The translations under genes and the position numbers were made by a program. A stretch of DNA of 34,228 nt from Gammaproteobacteria bacterium (lineage in GTDB: Bacteria; Pseudomonadota; Gammaproteobacteria; Pseudomonadales; Litorivicinaceae): positions 13,952 to 48,179 of the forward strand of contig PBZS01000008.1 in assembly GCA_002730235.1 (NCBI GenBank), read 5' to 3'. Shown here one piece after another: positions 1,612-32,343 of the stretch (positions are counted from its first letter, which is position 1; the number at the start of each line of letters is the position of its first letter). The notes under the pieces are model-generated. The model was not told the origin of the DNA. It made no database searches and saw only the letters and a program-made list of their open reading frames with translations.

Positions 1612-2397
1612 TTATAGGTTCTGGTTCAGGAATCGGAGCATTGAGTCGACTGAAGAGATAGCCTTCGAATTGATCTCGTAGGCACGCTGGGTCTCGATCA
1701 TGTTCACCATCTCTTCAACCACGTTTACGTTAGCCGCCTCGAGTGAACCCTGCGAAATCCGGCCAGCGCCATCGCTATCTGGGTTTGTAACGGTAGGTGC
1801 TCCCGAAGCTGACGTTTCTCTGTAAAGATTCTTACCCATCGGCTCTAGGCCAGCGTAGTTCACGAAACGCGTCAACTGCATCTGACCGATTACCTCCTCA
1901 GCCGCGTTTCCGTATGGCTGAATCGAAACCGTCCCGTCCTCCCCGACGCTAATGGACTCCGCATTTGCTGGGATCACTATCGATGGCTGGATGGGCATAC
2001 CATTCGCTGTAACCAACTCTCGGTCGACAGATAATTTAAACGAACCGTCACGGGTATATGACATCGTTCCGTCGGGTTGCAGTACTTGGAACATACCCTC
2101 ACCTTGAATCGCAAAATCCAACGCGTTCTTGGTCTGGATCATCGATCCTTGGTTGTAATTTTTCTCCGTGGAAACAATCCTCACCCCAGTACCAATCATG
2201 AGACCCGTGGGAGAGATATTGTCTCCACCGGTCGAACCACCGGCCTGACGTATGTTCTGATACAACAAGTCCTCGAAAACAGCTCGATCTTTCTTGAATC
2301 CAACAGTATTCACGTTAGCGAGGTTGTTCGATATCACACTCATGCGCATCTGCTGCGCATCAAGTCCGGTTTTACTTACCCAGAGTGAGGCTTCCAT
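1612..2397 (-). CDS. flgG: Flagellar distal rod protein FlgG
   Basis: 261 aa; SLWVSKTGLDAQQMRMSVISNNLANVNTVGFKKDRAVFEDLLYQ and C-terminal NVVEEMVNMIETQRAYEINSKAI. Confidence 0.97.
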   Translation of the reverse strand: MEASLWVSKTGLDAQQMRMSVISNNLANVNTVGFKKDRAVFEDLLYQNIRQAGGSTGGDNISPTGLMIGTGVRIVSTEKNYNQGSMIQTKNALDFAIQGEGMFQVLQPDGTMSYTRDGSFKLSVDRELVTANGMPIQPSIVIPANAESISVGEDGTVSIQPYGNAAEEVIGQMQLTRFVNYAGLEPMGKNLYRETSASGAPTVTNPDSDGAGRISQGSLEAANVNVVEEMVNMIETQRAYEINSKAISSVDSMLRFLNQNL

Positions 2398-2407
2398 TTG
2401 GTGTCTC

Positions 2408-3175
2408 CTATGACAAACTCAGCATGCTCTCGCCGCTGGTATCGTTATCTTTCATTTCACGGATGATCTTGGTTTGCATCTCGAACGAACGCATGTGATC
2501 GATGAACTTGACCAAAGTGTGCACTGGGCTTACGTTTGAACCTTCGATAGTCCCAGGTGTTAACGACGCGACACCCGTCCCGGGCTCAAAAACTTGACTG
2601 TCTTGCGTGTTGGTCATTGGCTTAAAAAGGCCATCCGTCCGTCGAGCGAGGTCAACATTTGTAGCGTCTCGGATACCTAAAACCGCGAGTTCTTGGAATC
2701 CATTGGCGGGGAGCATCGAATCAAAACCTGTAATCCTCCCATCAGTATTGATCTGGTAGGAAATACTCCCCTGTGGGAGTTGTATCGGCTTTAGCGAGTC
2801 ATCTAGGACCAGGTGTCCCTCTTGTGTTCTGAGGAAACCCTCCGGATCGAGAGTCATATCACCACGTCGAGTCCATGCGACCTCTCCATTATCCGCCAAC
2901 ACCGGCAGAACAGTTTTATTGTCCATCGCGATGTCGAGCGGCTTATTCGTTACGATCCTTGGTCCATGCTCCAGGTCAATGAGTGGCGACGTCACTGCGC
3001 GAGGAAGGTATCTTGTATCGAAACCATCGCCCTCGGTTCGGATCGCACGGTTCGCTAGTTGGAATGCCTTCTTGAAACCCGGCGTGGACACGTTCGCAAG
3101 TTCATGCGTCATGTTTTGCCGGTCAAGTCGGTACTCCGACATCGCCATATTTGCTGTGAATACCAAACGATCCAT
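2408..3175 (-). CDS. flgF: Flagellar proximal rod protein FlgF
   Basis: 255 aa; MDRLVFTANMAMSEYRLDRQNMTHELANVSTPGFKK, C-terminal rod-family domain; between flgG and flgE. Confidence 0.93.
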   Translation of the reverse strand: MDRLVFTANMAMSEYRLDRQNMTHELANVSTPGFKKAFQLANRAIRTEGDGFDTRYLPRAVTSPLIDLEHGPRIVTNKPLDIAMDNKTVLPVLADNGEVAWTRRGDMTLDPEGFLRTQEGHLVLDDSLKPIQLPQGSISYQINTDGRITGFDSMLPANGFQELAVLGIRDATNVDLARRTDGLFKPMTNTQDSQVFEPGTGVASLTPGTIEGSNVSPVHTLVKFIDHMRSFEMQTKIIREMKDNDTSGESMLSLS

Positions 3176-3200: not shown

Positions 3201-6200
3201 TTAGCTCCTGATGTTGATAATGGTCGAGGTCAAGGTCGATGACGTCTCAATCGCTTTTGCGTTGGCCTGGAAGTTCCGCTGTGCGGTAATCAGGTCAACC
3301 AGCTCTGACGTCAAATCGACATTAGCCCTTTCCCTTGCACCAGCACGGATCGTGCCAAATCCAGCACCGCCTGGCTCACCGAGTGTCGGACGCCCAGATT
3401 CATTGGACTCTAGGAAGGTTGAGTCCCCCAACTGACGTAACCCATTAGGTGTCGAGAAAGTGGACAATACGATTTTTCCTTTGAGACCCTGGGTGCCATT
3501 CGAGTACGAAGCTGTTACCAAGCCGTCATCTGCGATGTCCACCGCGACCAAAGAACCATTCGGCTGACCATTCTGGCTCTGTGAGTTCACAGAAAAGTCA
3601 CCTGAGAACTGAGTAGATCCAGCGTAGTCGATATCAATGTTGAGGGTATTACCCGAGCCACCGATCACGACGTTATCGAGGGATATTCCACCGAGTGGAG
3701 ATATCAGGTTACCAGCCGTATCGAAGGTCAACTCACCCTTGTCTAAGAACAGGGGACGAAACTCTGGATCGTTCGTAAACTCGCGGCTCCCAGGTAATTC
3801 GGAAAAACCGGAAGTTATGTCAGTACTGTACTCCCGGAATACCCCGTTCTCGTCCTTTGTCACGTAGATTGGCCGCCCGTTCGATGTCTGCTCCGAGACT
3901 GGTGGTCGATACGTTGAGGTCTGACCAACACTCGAATCAATACCTTCGAGGCCATACCGCGATGACCCTGATACCTGGAAGAACGAAGAATCCCCGCTGG
4001 TTCCAGAAGTGAACGTGAATATTTCGTTCGTCTGGTCAAAATCGACCACAACGCCGGATATTGAATTTCCACGGTTGTCCTGCATCGCGTTGATTCTGTT
4101 CTGAAGCGCTGTCTTGAAACTGTTCAAGTTGTAGTTTCCAACAGGCAGACGAAACGTTTCCGTTACATTATCGACGGTTACTGTAAATTGGTTGGATAAA
4201 TCGTCGGTGAAAAACGTCTCGTCCGGGTCGATACTAACGGGCTTACCAAATACCTTTGCGGCAGTCGATACCACCCCTCGAACAGCCGTTGAGCCCTCCT
4301 CTGCGACTACCTCAAGTACGGCCGACGGGTTATCGGAATCAAAGCCAAATAATGTTTTAGCATCAGCAGAAACGTTTGTGATTCGCATCGCGGATGTATC
4401 ACCTGTCTCGCCGCTCGCGATGGTAAAGGTTCCACCAACTCCTCCCTCTTCCGTATTGGGAAGAAACTCAACCAATACACCATACCGCTGCTGACCCGAG
4501 TCTCTCGAAAGCTGCTCAGAACCGTTTGGAACAACCTCAGCCGGATACCGGCCTCTAGAGTCAATCGTAAAATCAGAGGATTGGGTCGTCAGGCCGAATA
4601 ATGTATTGGGCACCAAGCTGCCAGTGAGTGAGGCTTCCGCTGGTACGTTTGTGATACGGAGCTTGCTTGAGTCATCCTCAGGTGAGAAGACGAAGCCCTT
4701 AGACGCTCGGCTGTACTCTACCGAGATGTGTGTATTTGTTGCCTCGCGGATTTGACTTGTAATCTCAGCCGCCAACGATTCCTCTGTATATTGAGTGCTC
4801 GCAGGGATAAATACATCAACCACCTGTAATGGTGTGGAGGTTTCCTCGGTCCCGGTCACATCATCACCGTCCGCGTCAAATAAAATACGGAATTGACGGT
4901 TCGCATCGGAACTGACGTTAAAGAAACGCTGGTCACCAAACTGACGATTAATCTCCTGTGTCATTAGCGCCGCAACCTCTTCTCCAGAAAGCGCAGAATT
5001 CTCGGGACGGGTCATCGCTGAGAGATCGACCATAATCGCATCAGTCGCGTTGGCGTCATTGGGGTCCTCGTCGATGGTTAGCTCGAAGGCCTGTGAAAGG
5101 TCAAATGCCTCCACTCCATTGGTCGAGATCTGAGTAACGTCACCTGAAGCTAGGGCAGTCACTACGTCAGACACAACACCACTCAACAAGTTCTGACCAG
5201 TGCTCAGACCCGTCGGCTCCTCGTCAACTGTGACCGTGAAATCGGTTCCATCGATCCGGCTCACCACAAACTGGAATGCGTCGGTAGTGGATGCAGAGAT
5301 TCGATATCCTGTCCCTGCTGCTGAACCATTCAGAGCCTCTACTATCTCCGCAGTGGTTGGGGTCGACGCTAGTACTGAACCATTTGTTGTTGATGCCGAG
5401 TAAGAGGTCGTTAGCTGGTTTGAATTTGTGGATATGTGCTCGTGCAAGGCCGCATCACCACTAAGAGCGTGGTCGCCTCCGAGCGCTACTTTGAAGTTGG
5501 TGCCGTCAGCACGAATGGCCTTTATCAGATTGGTATTCAAGGTGTTGCCACTCGTATCCTGCTCCAACTCAAAAGAGTATTCCGTATTGGTCAGGCCAGT
5601 TGCGGTTGCTGATAGTGCCGTGCCGCTTACCGACGAGATATTTTCGGTCAAGGCGACGTCCCCCGACGCGATCGAGTTCCTAGCACCAAGCTTGAGTGTA
5701 AATTGTTGCGAAGTACTGTAGTCCGAGTCTCCGTCAGACAGCGACGCACCGGCACTATTCCAAGTCATCGCAAACGTAGAAGTCTCATCCACCGAATGAG
5801 AGGTCATGAAGCCTACTTTAAATGAGTTAGTCTCGTCGAATCTGTTGTCACCCGAAACACCATTGGTGATGATAAGTTTGGTGCCCGCCGTGTTAGTCGC
5901 AAATACGAGACTTGAATCGGTGGCAGGGTTTGCGTTGAGGTAACTAACAAGCGTCGCCAAGTCGACATCGTCTGACGCGACTCCAACAATCTTCTCGCCC
6001 ACGCCGTCGCCCGTCAATGCGACGGCTGCGCCAGCAGTAGCATCGGTCGATGATGCGGCCAATTGTATAGTGTTTGCGTCAACGGCTATCACATAGTAGG
6101 TGCCCGCCGCAAGTCCCGTATCGGCGGCCGTCGCGCTGTAGGTTACCTGGTCACCCGTACTGTAACCATGACCGGCTAATGTAATGCGATCGGTCAGCGG

Positions 6201-7919
6201 AGCGACGTCGGTTCCACCGGTCCAAGAAACCGGACTAGCTTCGAGTGCCTCGAGATCGTCGGCATTGACTGAATGGGTAAAAATGTCACCCGCCTCAGTA
6301 GTAAACTCCAGACCAATTACACTCGGCGTCTCGCCACCAGTCGTATAGCTGAGGTCATTCATCCCCGTGACCGACAAAGTCCTGCTGGGCCGATCTTGCG
6401 ATACCACAATGCCACTGCTTGTTGCTGACAGTGTGAATGGGGAGACGGCCGGTCCATTCAGTCCAGCCACAACATCCGCGAGAGTTGCTGCGTCACCAAG
6501 GGAAGTCAAAGTAGCTGGCGTCGTTCCGTCAGCCGCATAGGTTGCGACGTTATTGAAGGTGTATTCCTGGCCTTCAGCCGACGTAACAGTAAACTCAAGA
6601 AGGTCGGTTGAAATGAGATCCTCCACGCTCGACACCCCGATCACAGCATTCGCGCTGTTCAGAGACGTAACGATTTGAGCTGCCGAGGCATCTGCGGGTA
6701 ACGCAGCTGTTGTAAATATAGCGGCATCTGCCCCAGAAGTTCCATCCTCTTGCAGTTTGATGGACACTACGTCCCCAGACTCGACGTCCCCTGAGTTAAC
6801 AAACCCGACATATCCGCGGGCAGCCGTCGTGGTTTTGAGTGTTGTAGCCTCAGAGAGGCCTCCACCGAGGTCCGCCGTCAACGTCATCTGAATCGATGCA
6901 TTGGTGCCAACATTTTCTAACTCATCACGGTTCACGGTGAGAGTCTGTGACGCAACTATCGGGGCAAAATTCTGGCCCGCCTCGTCACTCAAATACGGTA
7001 ATTCTACAAGGCCTCCCTTTGCTTTCGCTGGCTCAGAGACGTTGGGTGACGAGAGGTCGTCAAGGTTATACTTTTGGAAGACGAGGTTATCGTTCAAGAC
7101 TACAGGTAGCTCGTTCTCTGGCACGATGTTCCCGTATTTATCTACAAACAGCGGGGTCCCACTTTGAGCGGTTGCCTGGCCTAGTGCTGGTGTAATCTCC
7201 TGTCCATCGAGCACCACATGCGTCTGCCACTTGTTGAATGGCTCGTTGGCTGAGGCTACACCTACCCTGCGGTAGAAGAATGTCAGCAAGAAGTCGTTAC
7301 CATTCTCATCAAAAATTGTTATGGCTGCCGACTTCGCATAGGTCGACGAATCTTCTGGGTTGAATGGCTTTATCTGCTCGAGGTTATTCTCGTCGATTGT
7401 TGTCAACGGCAACGACTCGGCAGGAAAGTTAATCGCAAAGTCAATGTTATCGGTGGCAACAGCCTCGCCAGTCGTCTTCGGTGCGATAAGTAACGGAATC
7501 AGCTCGGCCTTAAAGTCGGCCTTACCGAGTGAGTCAACCGATGCAACTTTTAGAAACTGGCCAGCCGAGTTGACGACCGTATTCTGTTCGTCTAGCAGAA
7601 ATGAGCCGTTACGAGTAAATAGATCCTGACCGTCGGCTGATCGCAGGGGGAAGAAACCCTCACCTGTTACCGCGAGGTCTAGCGAATTTCCGGAGAGCTC
7701 GATGTTGCCCTGCGAGAACTCCTGGGTCACCTGCTTCAGTGCTGTACCCTGACCAACGACGGTCGACGCTTTCTGTAATGGGGAGGTGGCAAAAATGTCA
7801 CCAAAGTCAGACCGTGACCGCTTAAAGCCTGTCGTTCCTGCGTTGGCAATGTTGTTTGATGTCACAGACAGCTGTGTTGTTGCAGCGTTTAGACCAGTCA
7901 ATGAGGTAAAGAACGACAT
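3201..7919 (-). CDS. flgE: Flagellar hook protein FlgE, unusually large (1572 aa)
   Basis: N-term MSFFTSLTGLNAATTQLSVTSNNIANAGTTGFKRSRSDFGD and C-term ERANVDLTSELVDLITAQRNFQANAKAIETSSTLTSTIINIRS are canonical FlgE; the centre is greatly expanded. Confidence 0.95.
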   Translation of the reverse strand: MSFFTSLTGLNAATTQLSVTSNNIANAGTTGFKRSRSDFGDIFATSPLQKASTVVGQGTALKQVTQEFSQGNIELSGNSLDLAVTGEGFFPLRSADGQDLFTRNGSFLLDEQNTVVNSAGQFLKVASVDSLGKADFKAELIPLLIAPKTTGEAVATDNIDFAINFPAESLPLTTIDENNLEQIKPFNPEDSSTYAKSAAITIFDENGNDFLLTFFYRRVGVASANEPFNKWQTHVVLDGQEITPALGQATAQSGTPLFVDKYGNIVPENELPVVLNDNLVFQKYNLDDLSSPNVSEPAKAKGGLVELPYLSDEAGQNFAPIVASQTLTVNRDELENVGTNASIQMTLTADLGGGLSEATTLKTTTAARGYVGFVNSGDVESGDVVSIKLQEDGTSGADAAIFTTAALPADASAAQIVTSLNSANAVIGVSSVEDLISTDLLEFTVTSAEGQEYTFNNVATYAADGTTPATLTSLGDAATLADVVAGLNGPAVSPFTLSATSSGIVVSQDRPSRTLSVTGMNDLSYTTGGETPSVIGLEFTTEAGDIFTHSVNADDLEALEASPVSWTGGTDVAPLTDRITLAGHGYSTGDQVTYSATAADTGLAAGTYYVIAVDANTIQLAASSTDATAGAAVALTGDGVGEKIVGVASDDVDLATLVSYLNANPATDSSLVFATNTAGTKLIITNGVSGDNRFDETNSFKVGFMTSHSVDETSTFAMTWNSAGASLSDGDSDYSTSQQFTLKLGARNSIASGDVALTENISSVSGTALSATATGLTNTEYSFELEQDTSGNTLNTNLIKAIRADGTNFKVALGGDHALSGDAALHEHISTNSNQLTTSYSASTTNGSVLASTPTTAEIVEALNGSAAGTGYRISASTTDAFQFVVSRIDGTDFTVTVDEEPTGLSTGQNLLSGVVSDVVTALASGDVTQISTNGVEAFDLSQAFELTIDEDPNDANATDAIMVDLSAMTRPENSALSGEEVAALMTQEINRQFGDQRFFNVSSDANRQFRILFDADGDDVTGTEETSTPLQVVDVFIPASTQYTEESLAAEITSQIREATNTHISVEYSRASKGFVFSPEDDSSKLRITNVPAEASLTGSLVPNTLFGLTTQSSDFTIDSRGRYPAEVVPNGSEQLSRDSGQQRYGVLVEFLPNTEEGGVGGTFTIASGETGDTSAMRITNVSADAKTLFGFDSDNPSAVLEVVAEEGSTAVRGVVSTAAKVFGKPVSIDPDETFFTDDLSNQFTVTVDNVTETFRLPVGNYNLNSFKTALQNRINAMQDNRGNSISGVVVDFDQTNEIFTFTSGTSGDSSFFQVSGSSRYGLEGIDSSVGQTSTYRPPVSEQTSNGRPIYVTKDENGVFREYSTDITSGFSELPGSREFTNDPEFRPLFLDKGELTFDTAGNLISPLGGISLDNVVIGGSGNTLNIDIDYAGSTQFSGDFSVNSQSQNGQPNGSLVAVDIADDGLVTASYSNGTQGLKGKIVLSTFSTPNGLRQLGDSTFLESNESGRPTLGEPGGAGFGTIRAGARERANVDLTSELVDLITAQRNFQANAKAIETSSTLTSTIINIRS

Positions 7920-7922
7920 CTC

Positions 7923-8666
7923 TTATTCTCCAGTGTTTACAGTTTTAGTGGATTCAGCAGGCTCACTGCCTGCCTCTTGACCAATTCGTGTTACCTGGTC
8001 CATCGGGATCACAGCCCCGCCAGCCAGGTTAAGGTTTAGGTCACTGTTTAGGGCGTCCCAAGATACGGTCTCGACACGCGAATAAGTTGAAGGAATAACG
8101 GCTTCCGATTTTCCACTAACAACAACGTTACCTCGGACAACATAGGAGCCAGCCTGCGCCGATGTTCCGTCGGCTTTACGACCATCCCAAGCGATATTCA
8201 GCGTACCCGAGCCCTGGGGCCCGACCACCATCGAACGCATCAGTGCGCCCGACACAGGATCATAGATACCCACCTCGACCTGATCAGCTCCATACGGAAG
8301 ATTGAATTCAATAGCAGACGCGGTAGAGCCATCGGTGGTGATGCGACCCGTCTGTCCAAACACGGATTTCCCGACCAAATTTGCGCCCGTCATGATGCGA
8401 TCTGACCGGATGACATCGGCAACATCGGATAAAGAGGTCGACATGTTCGTTATCCCTTCCAGTTGCGAGAACTGTGCTAGCTGCGCAACAAACTGCTCAT
8501 TTTTCATTGGATCAAGTGGGTTCTGGTTTTGAAGTTGAGTCGTCAACAACGTCAAGAACGCATTCCGATCCAACCCATCATCTCGCACAGTTTTCACTAA
8601 ATTGGCTTCGTCATATTCCTGTTTTGTCAATATGCCCGTGTTGGCAAATGAGATATCTGTTTCCAT
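7923..8666 (-). CDS. flgD: Flagellar hook cap/assembly protein FlgD
   Basis: 247 aa; DRNAFLTLLTTQLQNQNPLDPMKNEQFVAQLAQFSQLEGI is the FlgD signature. Confidence 0.97.
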   Translation of the reverse strand: METDISFANTGILTKQEYDEANLVKTVRDDGLDRNAFLTLLTTQLQNQNPLDPMKNEQFVAQLAQFSQLEGITNMSTSLSDVADVIRSDRIMTGANLVGKSVFGQTGRITTDGSTASAIEFNLPYGADQVEVGIYDPVSGALMRSMVVGPQGSGTLNIAWDGRKADGTSAQAGSYVVRGNVVVSGKSEAVIPSTYSRVETVSWDALNSDLNLNLAGGAVIPMDQVTRIGQEAGSEPAESTKTVNTGE

Positions 8667-9556: not shown

Positions 9557-9572
9557 AGCAATTGATGTGCCA
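9557..9572 (-). promoter_or_regulatory. Sigma-54 (RpoN) -24/-12 promoter for flgB operon
   Basis: Minus-strand TGGCAC-atcaa-TTGCT matches TGGCAC-N5-TTGCW exactly, about 70 bp upstream of flgB start. Confidence 0.85.
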
Positions 9573-9697
9573 AGTGTTTCAAAGCGAGAAAGACCGGCAG
9601 GTTCTGATTCGGTGCGGCAATAAACACTGCCCGTTTCCGGCAAAAGCTTGCCGAGATTTGCAGTTGCAATTCGTGACACGCGCTACATACTGGATGG

Positions 9698-12398: not shown

Positions 12399-14098
12399 GC
12401 TTTAGCGTCCAAATGAGGCATCCCCTCAGACGACAGCTTTTCAAAGCCTGGTCGCGGTGACGCGAAAATCTGCATCGACTTCACACGTAAATCGTGCTCC
12501 ATTAATGCTTCTTTTAAATCCATCTTCGATTTCTTTGCCAACGCTGCAGTTTGCTCTTCTTTGGCCCAAAATGTGAGTTCAACATCTGTTCCCGAAAATG
12601 AAGATTTCATCCAGACCTCACCTAGGCTATCGAGAGATGTATGTAAATTCAGAATCCATAAACGCTTGATCTTGTCCCCGTCGGTGACATTTTTTCTCTC
12701 AAATAACAACTCAACCGGCGGCTGATCACGCAGCAACAATAGGGCTACCAAACCGGATTCACGAATATGTGATTGCGGAAGTGCCTCAATTTGCAGACTC
12801 TCAATCTCCGTAACAAGCCCGGCAATACGCGATGTCAACTCAGATTGTTGCGGAAGAAGCCGCAAAATCTGCCGGAGCCATGGCTTCAGCATACCGCCCC
12901 GAAGAGCCACACCTTCTAGTAAGGCTTTTTCATTACCCAATGCACCAAACTGAATCGCATTCTTGATGAGATCACCCGTAAGCTGATTTGACGGCAAGCG
13001 ATTTGTGTTTAATCTCTTCGCTTCATCGGTCAAGCCGACTGCTATCAAAAAACTCTCAAGACCCTGAGGAGCAAAAAGACTCTGTATCTGGGGTCTCGCC
13101 ATATTACGGGTCAAAATCGCAGCCAAAGCTGCAGATAATCCTGATGTCGAAAGCGCCTGACTAGCTTGTGGCTGCTGCGACAGCTGCGGAACAAAAGCAA
13201 GTCCTTCCTTGGTTTGAATCACGCGCAGTAAAACCTGGCCCTCAGGGAGTTTCATGTGGGACGGCAGCGGAAGCCTATACTGGCCGAGCTGCAATGCCAT
13301 CTTATCACCGCTTGATGCAACTAGCGCTTGCACCACCTCACCTGGCTTCAGACCAAGCTCACCGGCAATTGGCTGACGGATTGGCACACTGGTTGGTAAA
13401 GCGTCAGGTGCTATCGCACGTGGAACAGCTGCGGAAATATCTGGTATCAGCATCGGTTTCTCACCCCCTATAGTCTGTATCGACCGCGCTACTGATTTTG
13501 CCAGCTCTGAGGGTAATTTGGCATACCCTAGTGATTCGCCGGATGAGACCGATGTACCAAGGTATTGGTCAACATTTAAATAATTTACTGCCAATGTCTG
13601 CGACACCTGATGAGCGTCAACTCGGGAGATCGCTTGCAGCAATGGTGGTAGTGGCGATGCTGGAACTTTCCCGACGACTGGAGAAGGCCGTGATGCACTA
13701 AAGTTCATGGGCTCGTTACGCAATACAATCTGCATAGGTTCGGGTCGAGCTACCTGGCCCATCATCACTAATTGCTGATCGGATATCACACGAATGTGTA
13801 AATTTATCTGTGGATTTACCTCCAGAATACGCAAAAGCTCGGGAATTGATGGCACACGAAGTCTGTATTGATTGGGATATACTTGCCCCCAGATGATCGG
13901 TTCCCGCGAAACTGGATCTATGGTGAGAACGGCTGTCTCTGAACGGGTGCGCAAAATCGCGCGTGCTACTGGGTCAGCCAGGGTAATTCGTAGTGTGTGC
14001 GTAAGTTGTCGAGCAGTATTTTCTGAACCAATACCGCCCGGTGCAGCCAAATCCATATCAAGGGTACCGGACCCATCCGGCCTTCTTATCCGATACAT
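12395..14098 (-). CDS. FliK-like hook-length-control domain protein (second FliK paralogue); probable true start ATG at 14056
   Basis: 567 aa; long low-conservation N-term, C-term LWILNLHTSLDSLGEVWMKSSFSGTDVELTFWAKEEQTAALAKKSKMDLKEALMEHDLRVKSMQIF resembles Flg_hook domain. ATG 14056 (MDLAAPGG) directly follows the upstream gene's TGA. Confidence 0.8.
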   Translation of the reverse strand: MYRIRRPDGSGTLDMDLAAPGGIGSENTARQLTHTLRITLADPVARAILRTRSETAVLTIDPVSREPIIWGQVYPNQYRLRVPSIPELLRILEVNPQINLHIRVISDQQLVMMGQVARPEPMQIVLRNEPMNFSASRPSPVVGKVPASPLPPLLQAISRVDAHQVSQTLAVNYLNVDQYLGTSVSSGESLGYAKLPSELAKSVARSIQTIGGEKPMLIPDISAAVPRAIAPDALPTSVPIRQPIAGELGLKPGEVVQALVASSGDKMALQLGQYRLPLPSHMKLPEGQVLLRVIQTKEGLAFVPQLSQQPQASQALSTSGLSAALAAILTRNMARPQIQSLFAPQGLESFLIAVGLTDEAKRLNTNRLPSNQLTGDLIKNAIQFGALGNEKALLEGVALRGGMLKPWLRQILRLLPQQSELTSRIAGLVTEIESLQIEALPQSHIRESGLVALLLLRDQPPVELLFERKNVTDGDKIKRLWILNLHTSLDSLGEVWMKSSFSGTDVELTFWAKEEQTAALAKKSKMDLKEALMEHDLRVKSMQIFASPRPGFEKLSSEGMPHLDAKA

Positions 14099-14537
14099 TC
14101 TTTTTCAGACGGCCCGGCATATTCTTAAAAACCACACGACGAAGATCATCAATATCAGGTACCTTCAACACGACGCCTGCATACATCCAATTTGGATTAT
14201 TGCGACGGAAAGCGTGCGGATTTGCCCTCACAAAGGCTTTTCTTAGCAAATCACGTTGAAGCGGTGAATTGGGCGCAACCTTTCGAATTACCATGTCCAA
14301 CGTTTCGCCCCGACGAACTCGATAAGTTCCTCCGGTCTTTATAGTATCTGGTAAGGTCTGTTTACCGGTTGAAACATCATGCTGAGATGCACTAGGAACT
14401 GGGACTCGCATAATCTCAACATCTTTAATGTCCTTCAATAAACGACTCACGGCCTTGTCTACGGACATATCAGTTGCCGCCACGGACCCAGCGAACACAA
14501 ATGTTACGATTGCTAAACACCAACGCATCATATTCAT
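14058..14537 (-). CDS. Small exported FimV/LysM-like protein
   Basis: 159 aa; signal peptide MMRWCLAIVTFVFAGSVAAT; GGTYRVRRGETLDMVIRKVAPNSPLQRDLLRKAFVRANPHAFRRNNPNWMYAGVVLKVPD resembles the LysM-like region of FimV N-termini. Confidence 0.65.
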   Translation of the reverse strand: MNMMRWCLAIVTFVFAGSVAATDMSVDKAVSRLLKDIKDVEIMRVPVPSASQHDVSTGKQTLPDTIKTGGTYRVRRGETLDMVIRKVAPNSPLQRDLLRKAFVRANPHAFRRNNPNWMYAGVVLKVPDIDDLRRVVFKNMPGRLKKNVSDKKAGWVRYP

Positions 14538-15682: not shown

Positions 15683-16186
15683 TTACGACCGGTTACTGGT
15701 GAGAGAGGCCAGATACAGTGCTCGAAGATCATCCACCACGGTTTGATCCAACGACATCGTAGTCTCGTAAGTGTCTTCACCGACGGGCGCGATACTCACC
15801 ACCTTCGCGCCATAAATAACACCCTCGACTTGAGTACGGAACGTATCACTCAAAACAGCCATATCAGCAACAGTGGTTGTTGCGTCAAGGTATTGGCCAT
15901 AGACCTGCTCAGTCAGACCCCGGTATGCGTCAAGCTTAGACGCCCTAATGGCCAACAAACGCTGTTGCGCATCAACATCTGAGGGCTGCACACTGATCAC
16001 TGCATACCCCGTCGAACGAATGGCGCTTCTGCGTTCAACAACAGGAATCACTTTCGTTTCGACTCGTGTTTCAACGGGTGGTTGCATCAGGGCGGCAGTA
16101 TTTTGCCCCGGCGGCGTCATAGTGACGCTACATCCTGAAACCAGCACTACTATTGCTATAGCAGCCAATCTAACCATATTACGCAT
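15683..16186 (-). CDS. flgP: FlgP-like LPP20-family outer-membrane lipoprotein
   Basis: 167 aa; lipobox VLVSGC; STGYAVISVQPSDVDAQQRLLAIRASKLDAYRGLTEQVYGQYLDATTTVADMAVLSDTFRTQVEGVIYGAKV is characteristic of FlgP/LPP20. Confidence 0.85.
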   Translation of the reverse strand: MRNMVRLAAIAIVVLVSGCSVTMTPPGQNTAALMQPPVETRVETKVIPVVERRSAIRSTGYAVISVQPSDVDAQQRLLAIRASKLDAYRGLTEQVYGQYLDATTTVADMAVLSDTFRTQVEGVIYGAKVVSIAPVGEDTYETTMSLDQTVVDDLRALYLASLTSNRS

Positions 16187-31071: not shown

Positions 31072-32343
31072 CTAAACGCGTATATCTAATCTCGTTAACC
31101 CGTCATTCGTTAACTGATCATGACCTAAGTCGGACGAATCTTCAGATTCTGTGGTCTGGACGTCCGATTGAGTATTTTGCTCTCGTGTCGATTTTTCGCC
31201 ATTCTTTGCCCCAGAATCTTGGGTCAATCCTGTATATGCAACATCAATGCCACCTTCTTCAAACCAACTTTTTAAGCGCGGCATTGATTCCATCAAAAGA
31301 TCCCGCGTCACTGACTGGCTTGCTCTAAAGCTCGCTTCCAGGCCTCGTTCGGTCATTTCCATTTCAATTTCGATCGAGCCCAATTCAGCGGGATGCATCG
31401 CGATCTCCAGACTCCATCGGCCACGACCTATTTGACCGGCAATTTGACGAGCGATCATATTACCAAGCTTATCTGTCAAACCTCGCAAAGATTCGGCGCG
31501 CCTCAGATGCTCAGCGAGAAACTCCCTAAATTCCTGTGTTTCAGAGCCTTGAGAAATCTCTGAAAGATTCCTTCCATCAAGCTGACTCGGTGAAAGTGAA
31601 CCCGAATCGGTTGATCCTCCAAAATTAGATGACGAACCACCTGTGGGCTTTTTCATAAATGACGGCACCAAATCAGTAAATTTGATGGTCATCTGATCCG
31701 ACGATTCGGAAGCCAACCTCGCTTTTAATTGTTGCGAAATATCATTTACGGCTAACACCTCAATAATTCTAGACGACTTGGCCGAGATCGGTGATTCAAG
31801 AAGTTGAACAGCTAATGCCTCAGCCAAATTCTTTGGTTTCAGTCCTTCGGTGTTTGGTCCAGAATCCGTCGACTCCAAGTGGCTCGAAACTTCCTCTCCA
31901 TCCCTATGCTTTAGCCAATAAGCTGTCGACTGTGCCTTTGGTGAGTATTCCTCATTCTCCGCCACAAACAACTGCATCATTTCAGCTCTCGACAATCCCT
32001 GATCCTGCATAAATATAACGAGTGAGTCATCTGACACTGTAGAGCTAGTTTCGGTCACTGTAATCAAATTAAGCTTGCCCGCGGTGCGGCTCTGTAAAGA
32101 ATTGGAATGAATCTCGCACAACTTACCTTCGAGTGATCTTGCTTCGCTCATGGAATCCCCCTGCGGCAAATCTTTGCCGGTCCCGGGTAACTGATCCGAT
32201 TTTGCTTTCTCCAACGCCTTGTCAAACCCATCCTCATACATATCATCGTCTAGCCCCCTATTTTCTTGGGATTTATTAACGTTAATACCTTCCGAAGATG
32301 TAGGTGATTGCAGCGAAATAGTGATATTTGAAGTAGACGACAT
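31072..32343 (-). CDS. fliK: Flagellar hook-length control protein FliK
   Basis: 423 aa; C-terminal RWSLEIAMHPAELGSIEIEMEMTERGLEASFRASQSVTRDLLMESMPRLKSWFEEGGIDVAYTGL; between fliJ and fliL. Confidence 0.92.
   Translation of the reverse strand: MSSTSNITISLQSPTSSEGINVNKSQENRGLDDDMYEDGFDKALEKAKSDQLPGTGKDLPQGDSMSEARSLEGKLCEIHSNSLQSRTAGKLNLITVTETSSTVSDDSLVIFMQDQGLSRAEMMQLFVAENEEYSPKAQSTAYWLKHRDGEEVSSHLESTDSGPNTEGLKPKNLAEALAVQLLESPISAKSSRIIEVLAVNDISQQLKARLASESSDQMTIKFTDLVPSFMKKPTGGSSSNFGGSTDSGSLSPSQLDGRNLSEISQGSETQEFREFLAEHLRRAESLRGLTDKLGNMIARQIAGQIGRGRWSLEIAMHPAELGSIEIEMEMTERGLEASFRASQSVTRDLLMESMPRLKSWFEEGGIDVAYTGLTQDSGAKNGEKSTREQNTQSDVQTTESEDSSDLGHDQLTNDGLTRLDIRV

Follow-up and report, generated by a model that had tools for sequence, protein, structure and literature searches.

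A giant FlgE hook protein in a Litorivicinaceae bacterium and its size relation to other external flagellar proteins

We analysed a 34,228-nucleotide stretch of contig PBZS01000008.1 from a small marine gammaproteobacterium of the Litorivicinaceae (assembly GCA_002730235.1; hereafter, the window), which carries flagellar genes in the normal order flgB-C-D-E-F-G-H (Table 1). Between flgD and flgF lies a flgE frame that starts with ATG downstream of a GGAG motif and contains zero internal stops, and whose acidic, serine- and threonine-rich product is almost four times the usual size of a hook protein. Pfam matches above cut-off were obtained for the rod domain (Flg_bb_rod, residues 5-33), D1 (PF22692, 83-125), the C-terminal domain (Flg_bbr_C, 1527-1570) and D2 (FlgE_D2, PF07559, 182-285 plus a second stretch), the last being split by an insert. 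The nearest PDB chains in a sequence search were FlgE hook proteins, and the FlgE/F/G subfamily model TIGR03506 was passed (259 vs 70). The best NCBIfam FlgE equivalog, NF004238, scored 338, below its cut-off of 400, which is an annotation threshold and not a defining biological feature; on such models, matches that a long insert divides in two have lower scores. Together with the operon position, these domains bear out the original prediction of a FlgE with canonical ends, and we take the frame to encode a working hook protein, predicted to polymerise.

Table 1. Features of the window and of the FlgE product, with window positions and the basis of each assignment
Feature	Positions	Strand	Basis
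flgG, distal rod, 261 aa, normal size, non-scaling control	1612..2397	-	profile matches
flgF, rod, normal size	2408..3175	-	profile matches
flgE, giant hook protein, 1572 aa, ~164 kDa, no cysteine	3201..7919	-	ORF, Pfam and NCBIfam FlgE matches, kept in relatives, composition
FlgE residues 1394-1572, remaining D2, D1 and C-terminal D0 helix	3204..3740	-	Pfam, PDB match, profile
Insert inside D2, residues 253-1393, 1,141 aa	3741..7163	-	gap between two profile matches
Inner shell, residues 921-1393, conserved throughout the giant FlgEs of the genus	3741..5159	-	alignment
Hypervariable distal block, residues 321-920	5160..6959	-	alignment of 11 genus FlgEs
GHGYSTGD module, ~85 aa, residues 561-645	5985..6239	-	sequence comparison
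FlgE residues 161-252, first D2 part, before the insert	7164..7439	-	short-FlgE profile, Pfam FlgE_D2
FlgE residues 1-160, D0/D1 core of the N terminus, polymerising, almost invariant across the genus	7440..7919	-	Pfam, alignment
flgD, hook cap	7923..8666	-	Pfam
Sigma-54-like candidate promoter site 5' of flgB, TTGGCACATCAATTGC	9558..9573	-	pattern scan only
Second protein with weak FliK C-terminal (Flg_hook) domain, 567 aa	12395..14098	-	
ORF with weak FimV/HubP polar-landmark core match	14058..14537	-	match under curated cut-off
Lipoprotein, FlgP homologue	15683..16186	-	E 2.8e-13 to FlgP chain of PDB 8z5n
fliK, hook-length ruler, 423 aa, normal size	31072..32343	-	Pfam

Three further frames of the window touch on the type of flagellum. 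The FlgP homologue suggests an outer-membrane ring or disk (H-ring or basal disk) of the Vibrio/Campylobacter type, and its presence would fit the large-motor type of these bacteria. The candidate FimV/HubP-like frame would fit a polar flagellum. Matches to the Flg_hook domain, as seen in fliK and in the 567-aa protein, occur in twos in many genomes of the order.

To delimit the insert, we used five short FlgEs of the order (393-431 aa) to build a profile, which matched residues 1-252 (profile positions 1-233) and 1394-1571 (227-405). Since the profile covers only these two stretches, the 1,141 residues between them are extra, in agreement with the earlier claim of more than 1000 additional residues. 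In an alignment of 11 FlgEs from the genus, 971-1572 aa long, residues 1-160 and 1440-1572 proved near-invariant and residues 161-320 and ~921-1440 conserved, and the distal block ranged from almost nothing, in the 971-aa relative, to ~600 aa. An internal-repeat search returned two modest duplications only. AlphaFold2 models of residues 250-1440 of the window FlgE (pLDDT 36.6) and of 1200 residues from a relative (pLDDT 33.2) were too low in confidence to use.

A size survey of FlgE homologues, proposed along with the original prediction, gave the genus range above and graded sizes within the order. Across the order (146 genomes sampled), FlgE frames (measured stop to stop, and hence slightly overlong) spanned ~394 to 1593 aa, with giants of more than 1,000 aa in the Litorivicinaceae (family f1) and in families f6 (1437-1593 aa), f39 (1215-1242 aa), f10 and f38. 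Outside the order, the largest FlgE among the matches listed for class and phylum samples was 865 aa, and a check of 80 genomes with unlisted or weak FlgE matches gave a maximum of 799 aa.

These large proteins fall into two types by the site of their insert. Profile position ~227-240 is the insertion site in the Litorivicinaceae (~227-233 in the window FlgE) and in three genomes of other families (G063, G104 and G152); the other site, at ~165-170, is that of f6, f39 and the majority of the remaining large FlgEs of the order. By Salmonella alignment, the latter is the site of the Campylobacter D3/D4 domains (PMC5069557); the window insert thus does not occupy the D2 position that corresponds to Salmonella residues 167/168. 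A tree of the FlgE core parts the same two types, with 100/100 support for the f1-type clade. Given the two D2 sites, giant FlgE probably arose at least twice independently in the order, and as G063, G104 and G152 belong to other families, lateral transfer is possible.

The survey also brought up genomes that depart from this pattern. Five genomes of genus g1 (G002, G009, G012, G019 and G020) gave no FlgE match at 90-98% completeness, their sisters having giant FlgEs; the flagellum may have been lost in them, perhaps more than once. The flagellar cluster of another genome, placed in that genus (G018; L049, L050), is a different one: its hook-like protein has 573 aa, its FlgK-like protein 913 aa and its flagellin 271 aa. 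Elsewhere in the order, FlgE_D2 was matched ten times in G081 (C16, C129, C135), in several cases with two matches inside a single frame (990-1017 aa).

FlgE is not the only enlarged protein of the source genome, which also encodes a 1151-aa FlgK, a 527-aa FlgL and, just beyond the window (G000:C8:3222-7991, L040), a 1589-aa FliC with Pfam Flagellin_N and Flagellin_C domains, which places it among the giant flagellins of more than 1,000 aa. Two further flagellins of this genome have frames of only ~295 aa. Using protein lengths taken from the search tables, we found that FlgE length correlated with that of FlgK (rho 0.90 over 45 genomes; 0.95 over 24 family means) and with that of the largest flagellin frame (rho 0.75 over 77 genomes; 0.79 over 32 family means). 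Both relations held in independent contrasts of log length (25 contrasts on an rpoB tree), with r=0.86 and p=2e-8 for FlgK and r=0.70 and p=7e-5 for flagellin; the tree is a quick one with one anomalous row (G084, with a very long end branch), without which the results were unchanged. Two entries rest on sisters: the length of the G001 FlgE, which is split over two contigs, and the flagellin value of G010, at least 661 aa, from G008. The G010 gene itself (G010:C1 near 89599; L047 13600-15547) lies in two frames of 136 and 527 aa, through a frameshift that is either real or a sequencing error. The match with flagellin is imperfect, as a 476-aa FlgE occurs with a 1247-aa flagellin and a 1054-aa FlgE with a 509-aa one.

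The rod and the ruler behaved differently. FlgG stayed at 261-285 aa among the 20 genomes listed and did not track FlgE, and FliK was near-constant within the genus (412-433 aa) and only weakly related to FlgE in order-wide contrasts (r=0.35, p=0.09). Taken together, these lengths suggest that whole flagella, i.e., hook, junction and filament, thicken as a unit, although correlation alone is no proof of mechanical matching. A broader proposition, which we regard as evenly poised, is that the three form one size-coupled system, in which outward domains were added in step to FlgE, FlgK and flagellin, repeatedly, at different FlgE sites and sometimes with shared modules; flagellar diameter would then be an evolvable multi-protein trait, with rod and ruler fixed.

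We arrived at the hypothesis that the outward domains of FlgE thicken the hook to fit the enlarged junction and the thick filament. The conserved D0/D1/D2 core would polymerise as in other hooks, and the insert would leave a D2 loop and fold outward as a stack of additional domains, with the genus-conserved inner shell followed by the variable outer shell. The outer shells would add radius and probably lateral contacts, giving a hook whose width matches the large FlgK and the giant flagellin, such that hook, junction and filament, thick together, may provide a thick flagellum with a strong universal joint. A rough mass-per-length estimate, which assumes a subunit rise of 0.41 nm and a packing of 0.4-1.0, puts the window hook at ~28-38 nm across. 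In previous studies the FlgE core D0-D2 was found to provide the basic hook contacts and to tolerate inserted domains, and Salmonella FlgE that had been given the D3/D4 domains of C. jejuni formed a thicker, functional hook (PMC5069557); hooks are 28 nm wide in C. jejuni and 18 nm in Salmonella (PMC5097172). Thick filaments, in turn, are built by giant flagellins in related marine bacteria (PMC6248924). The original suggestion that the insert would thicken the hook therefore fits both the Campylobacter precedent and the co-scaling of lengths; the thickness itself we infer, as we do the outward folding, diameter, stiffness, polar high-torque role and mechanical matching as the cause. We assign this explanation a probability of roughly 0.75, a joint figure that includes the working hook protein.

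The distal block contains an 85-aa module, marked by the motif GHGYSTGD, that raises another possible role for the insert. It matches three places in the flagellin of the same genome (62%, 59% and 44-46% identity), with no other copy in the source genome beyond these two proteins; in relatives, it is found in FliC and FliD as well. The module resembles PHROG tail-fibre and baseplate families (best E 8e-12), and a tblastn comparison with phage records gave zero matches. For the rest of the insert, sequence searches detected no relative in flagellin, Pfam or the PDB. A similarity of 500-700 residues between insert and flagellin, seen without composition correction, shrank to the module once correction and masking were applied, and concerted evolution of the module was rejected, as FlgE and FliC copies within a genome (62% at most) are less alike than FlgE modules of different species (86-91%).

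Such a tail-fibre-like module, in the block that changes fastest, could mean that the insert serves mainly for surface binding or as an adhesive display, touching particles, algae or polysaccharides along hook and filament, with thickness as a by-product. We consider this unlikely: the insert had zero matches to Pfam families or PDB chains of known binding function, the hook, with about a hundred subunits, offers a small display area beside the filament, and binding alone does not predict the correlation with FlgK.

Selection on the frame bears on the remaining alternatives. Compared with a homologue from another metagenome assembly (L006), dN/dS rose from 0.007 for the N-terminal core through 0.02-0.03 for the inner shell to 0.05-0.08 for the distal block, ratios that are approximate as dS is near saturation. 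Purifying selection is strong along the whole length of FlgE, insert included. The weaker constraint on the outer block, which is gained, lost and diverging inside one genus, would agree with a masking layer whose fast turnover evades flagellum-dependent phages or grazers while length, weakly constrained, drifts. However, all ratios are far below 1, diversifying selection was not seen in them, and masking does not predict the tight coupling of FlgE and FlgK lengths, all of which makes this reading improbable.

Slightly less probable again is a neutral ratchet, whereby axial proteins gather tolerated domains by insertion and recombination with no functional gain, their lengths being linked by a shared mutational tendency. 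The graded FlgE sizes and the occurrence of one module in FlgE, FliC and FliD of the genus are what such a process would leave behind, but the length correlations hold in phylogenetic contrasts, the rod proteins have not lengthened, purifying selection acts on the insert, and a small genome would be expected to shed useless coding DNA. Finally, although the metagenome assembly behind the window is fragmented (109 contigs), an assembly error or chimeric frame is close to negligible in probability, given that the gene recurs in other assemblies (L004-L007; 1570-1572 aa, 92-94% identity over the compared region), that low-contig genomes of the genus hold homologous giant FlgEs, and that dN/dS is low throughout; rather than lacking the insert, close relatives carry it in graded form.

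With thickening of the hook as the preferred reading, the closest known counterpart is the FlgE of Campylobacter jejuni (865 aa with D3 and D4; PDB 5jxl), which likewise bears big D2 insertions on the FlgE core, in a species with a wider hook. It is about half the size of the window FlgE, and its insert precedes the segment matching window residue 183, whereas the window insert comes after that segment; no sequence similarity was detected between the two inserts. For Campylobacter FlgK, divergence to suit the enlarged hook has been proposed (PMC5691160), the same coupling as seen here, but here across an order. Judged from sequence, the window FlgE is a real, conserved and extreme member of the FlgE family, with an insertion site unlike the known Campylobacter one, and is part of a graded, recurrent enlargement of the external flagellum in its order. 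In the open-licence literature we found no earlier report of hook proteins this large.

Bermanella and Oleibacter, which are related marine gammaproteobacteria, offer a second parallel, with outward domain growth of an axial protein and a thick filament, in work that covers flagellin (PMC6248924). There, Thomson et al. (2018) ask whether the other parts of a thick flagellum are enlarged to match, and our data provide a sequence-based answer: hook and junction proteins are enlarged, and the rod protein is not. Within the order itself, the giant FlgEs of f6 and f39 resemble that of the window in their comparable length, intact core and large FlgK and flagellin, and differ from it in their Campylobacter-type D2 site, their separate clade in the core tree and inserts without BLASTP similarity. 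The survey also points to giant hook proteins having been reached by two independent routes, so that mechanical matching of hook and filament becomes testable by comparison between species.
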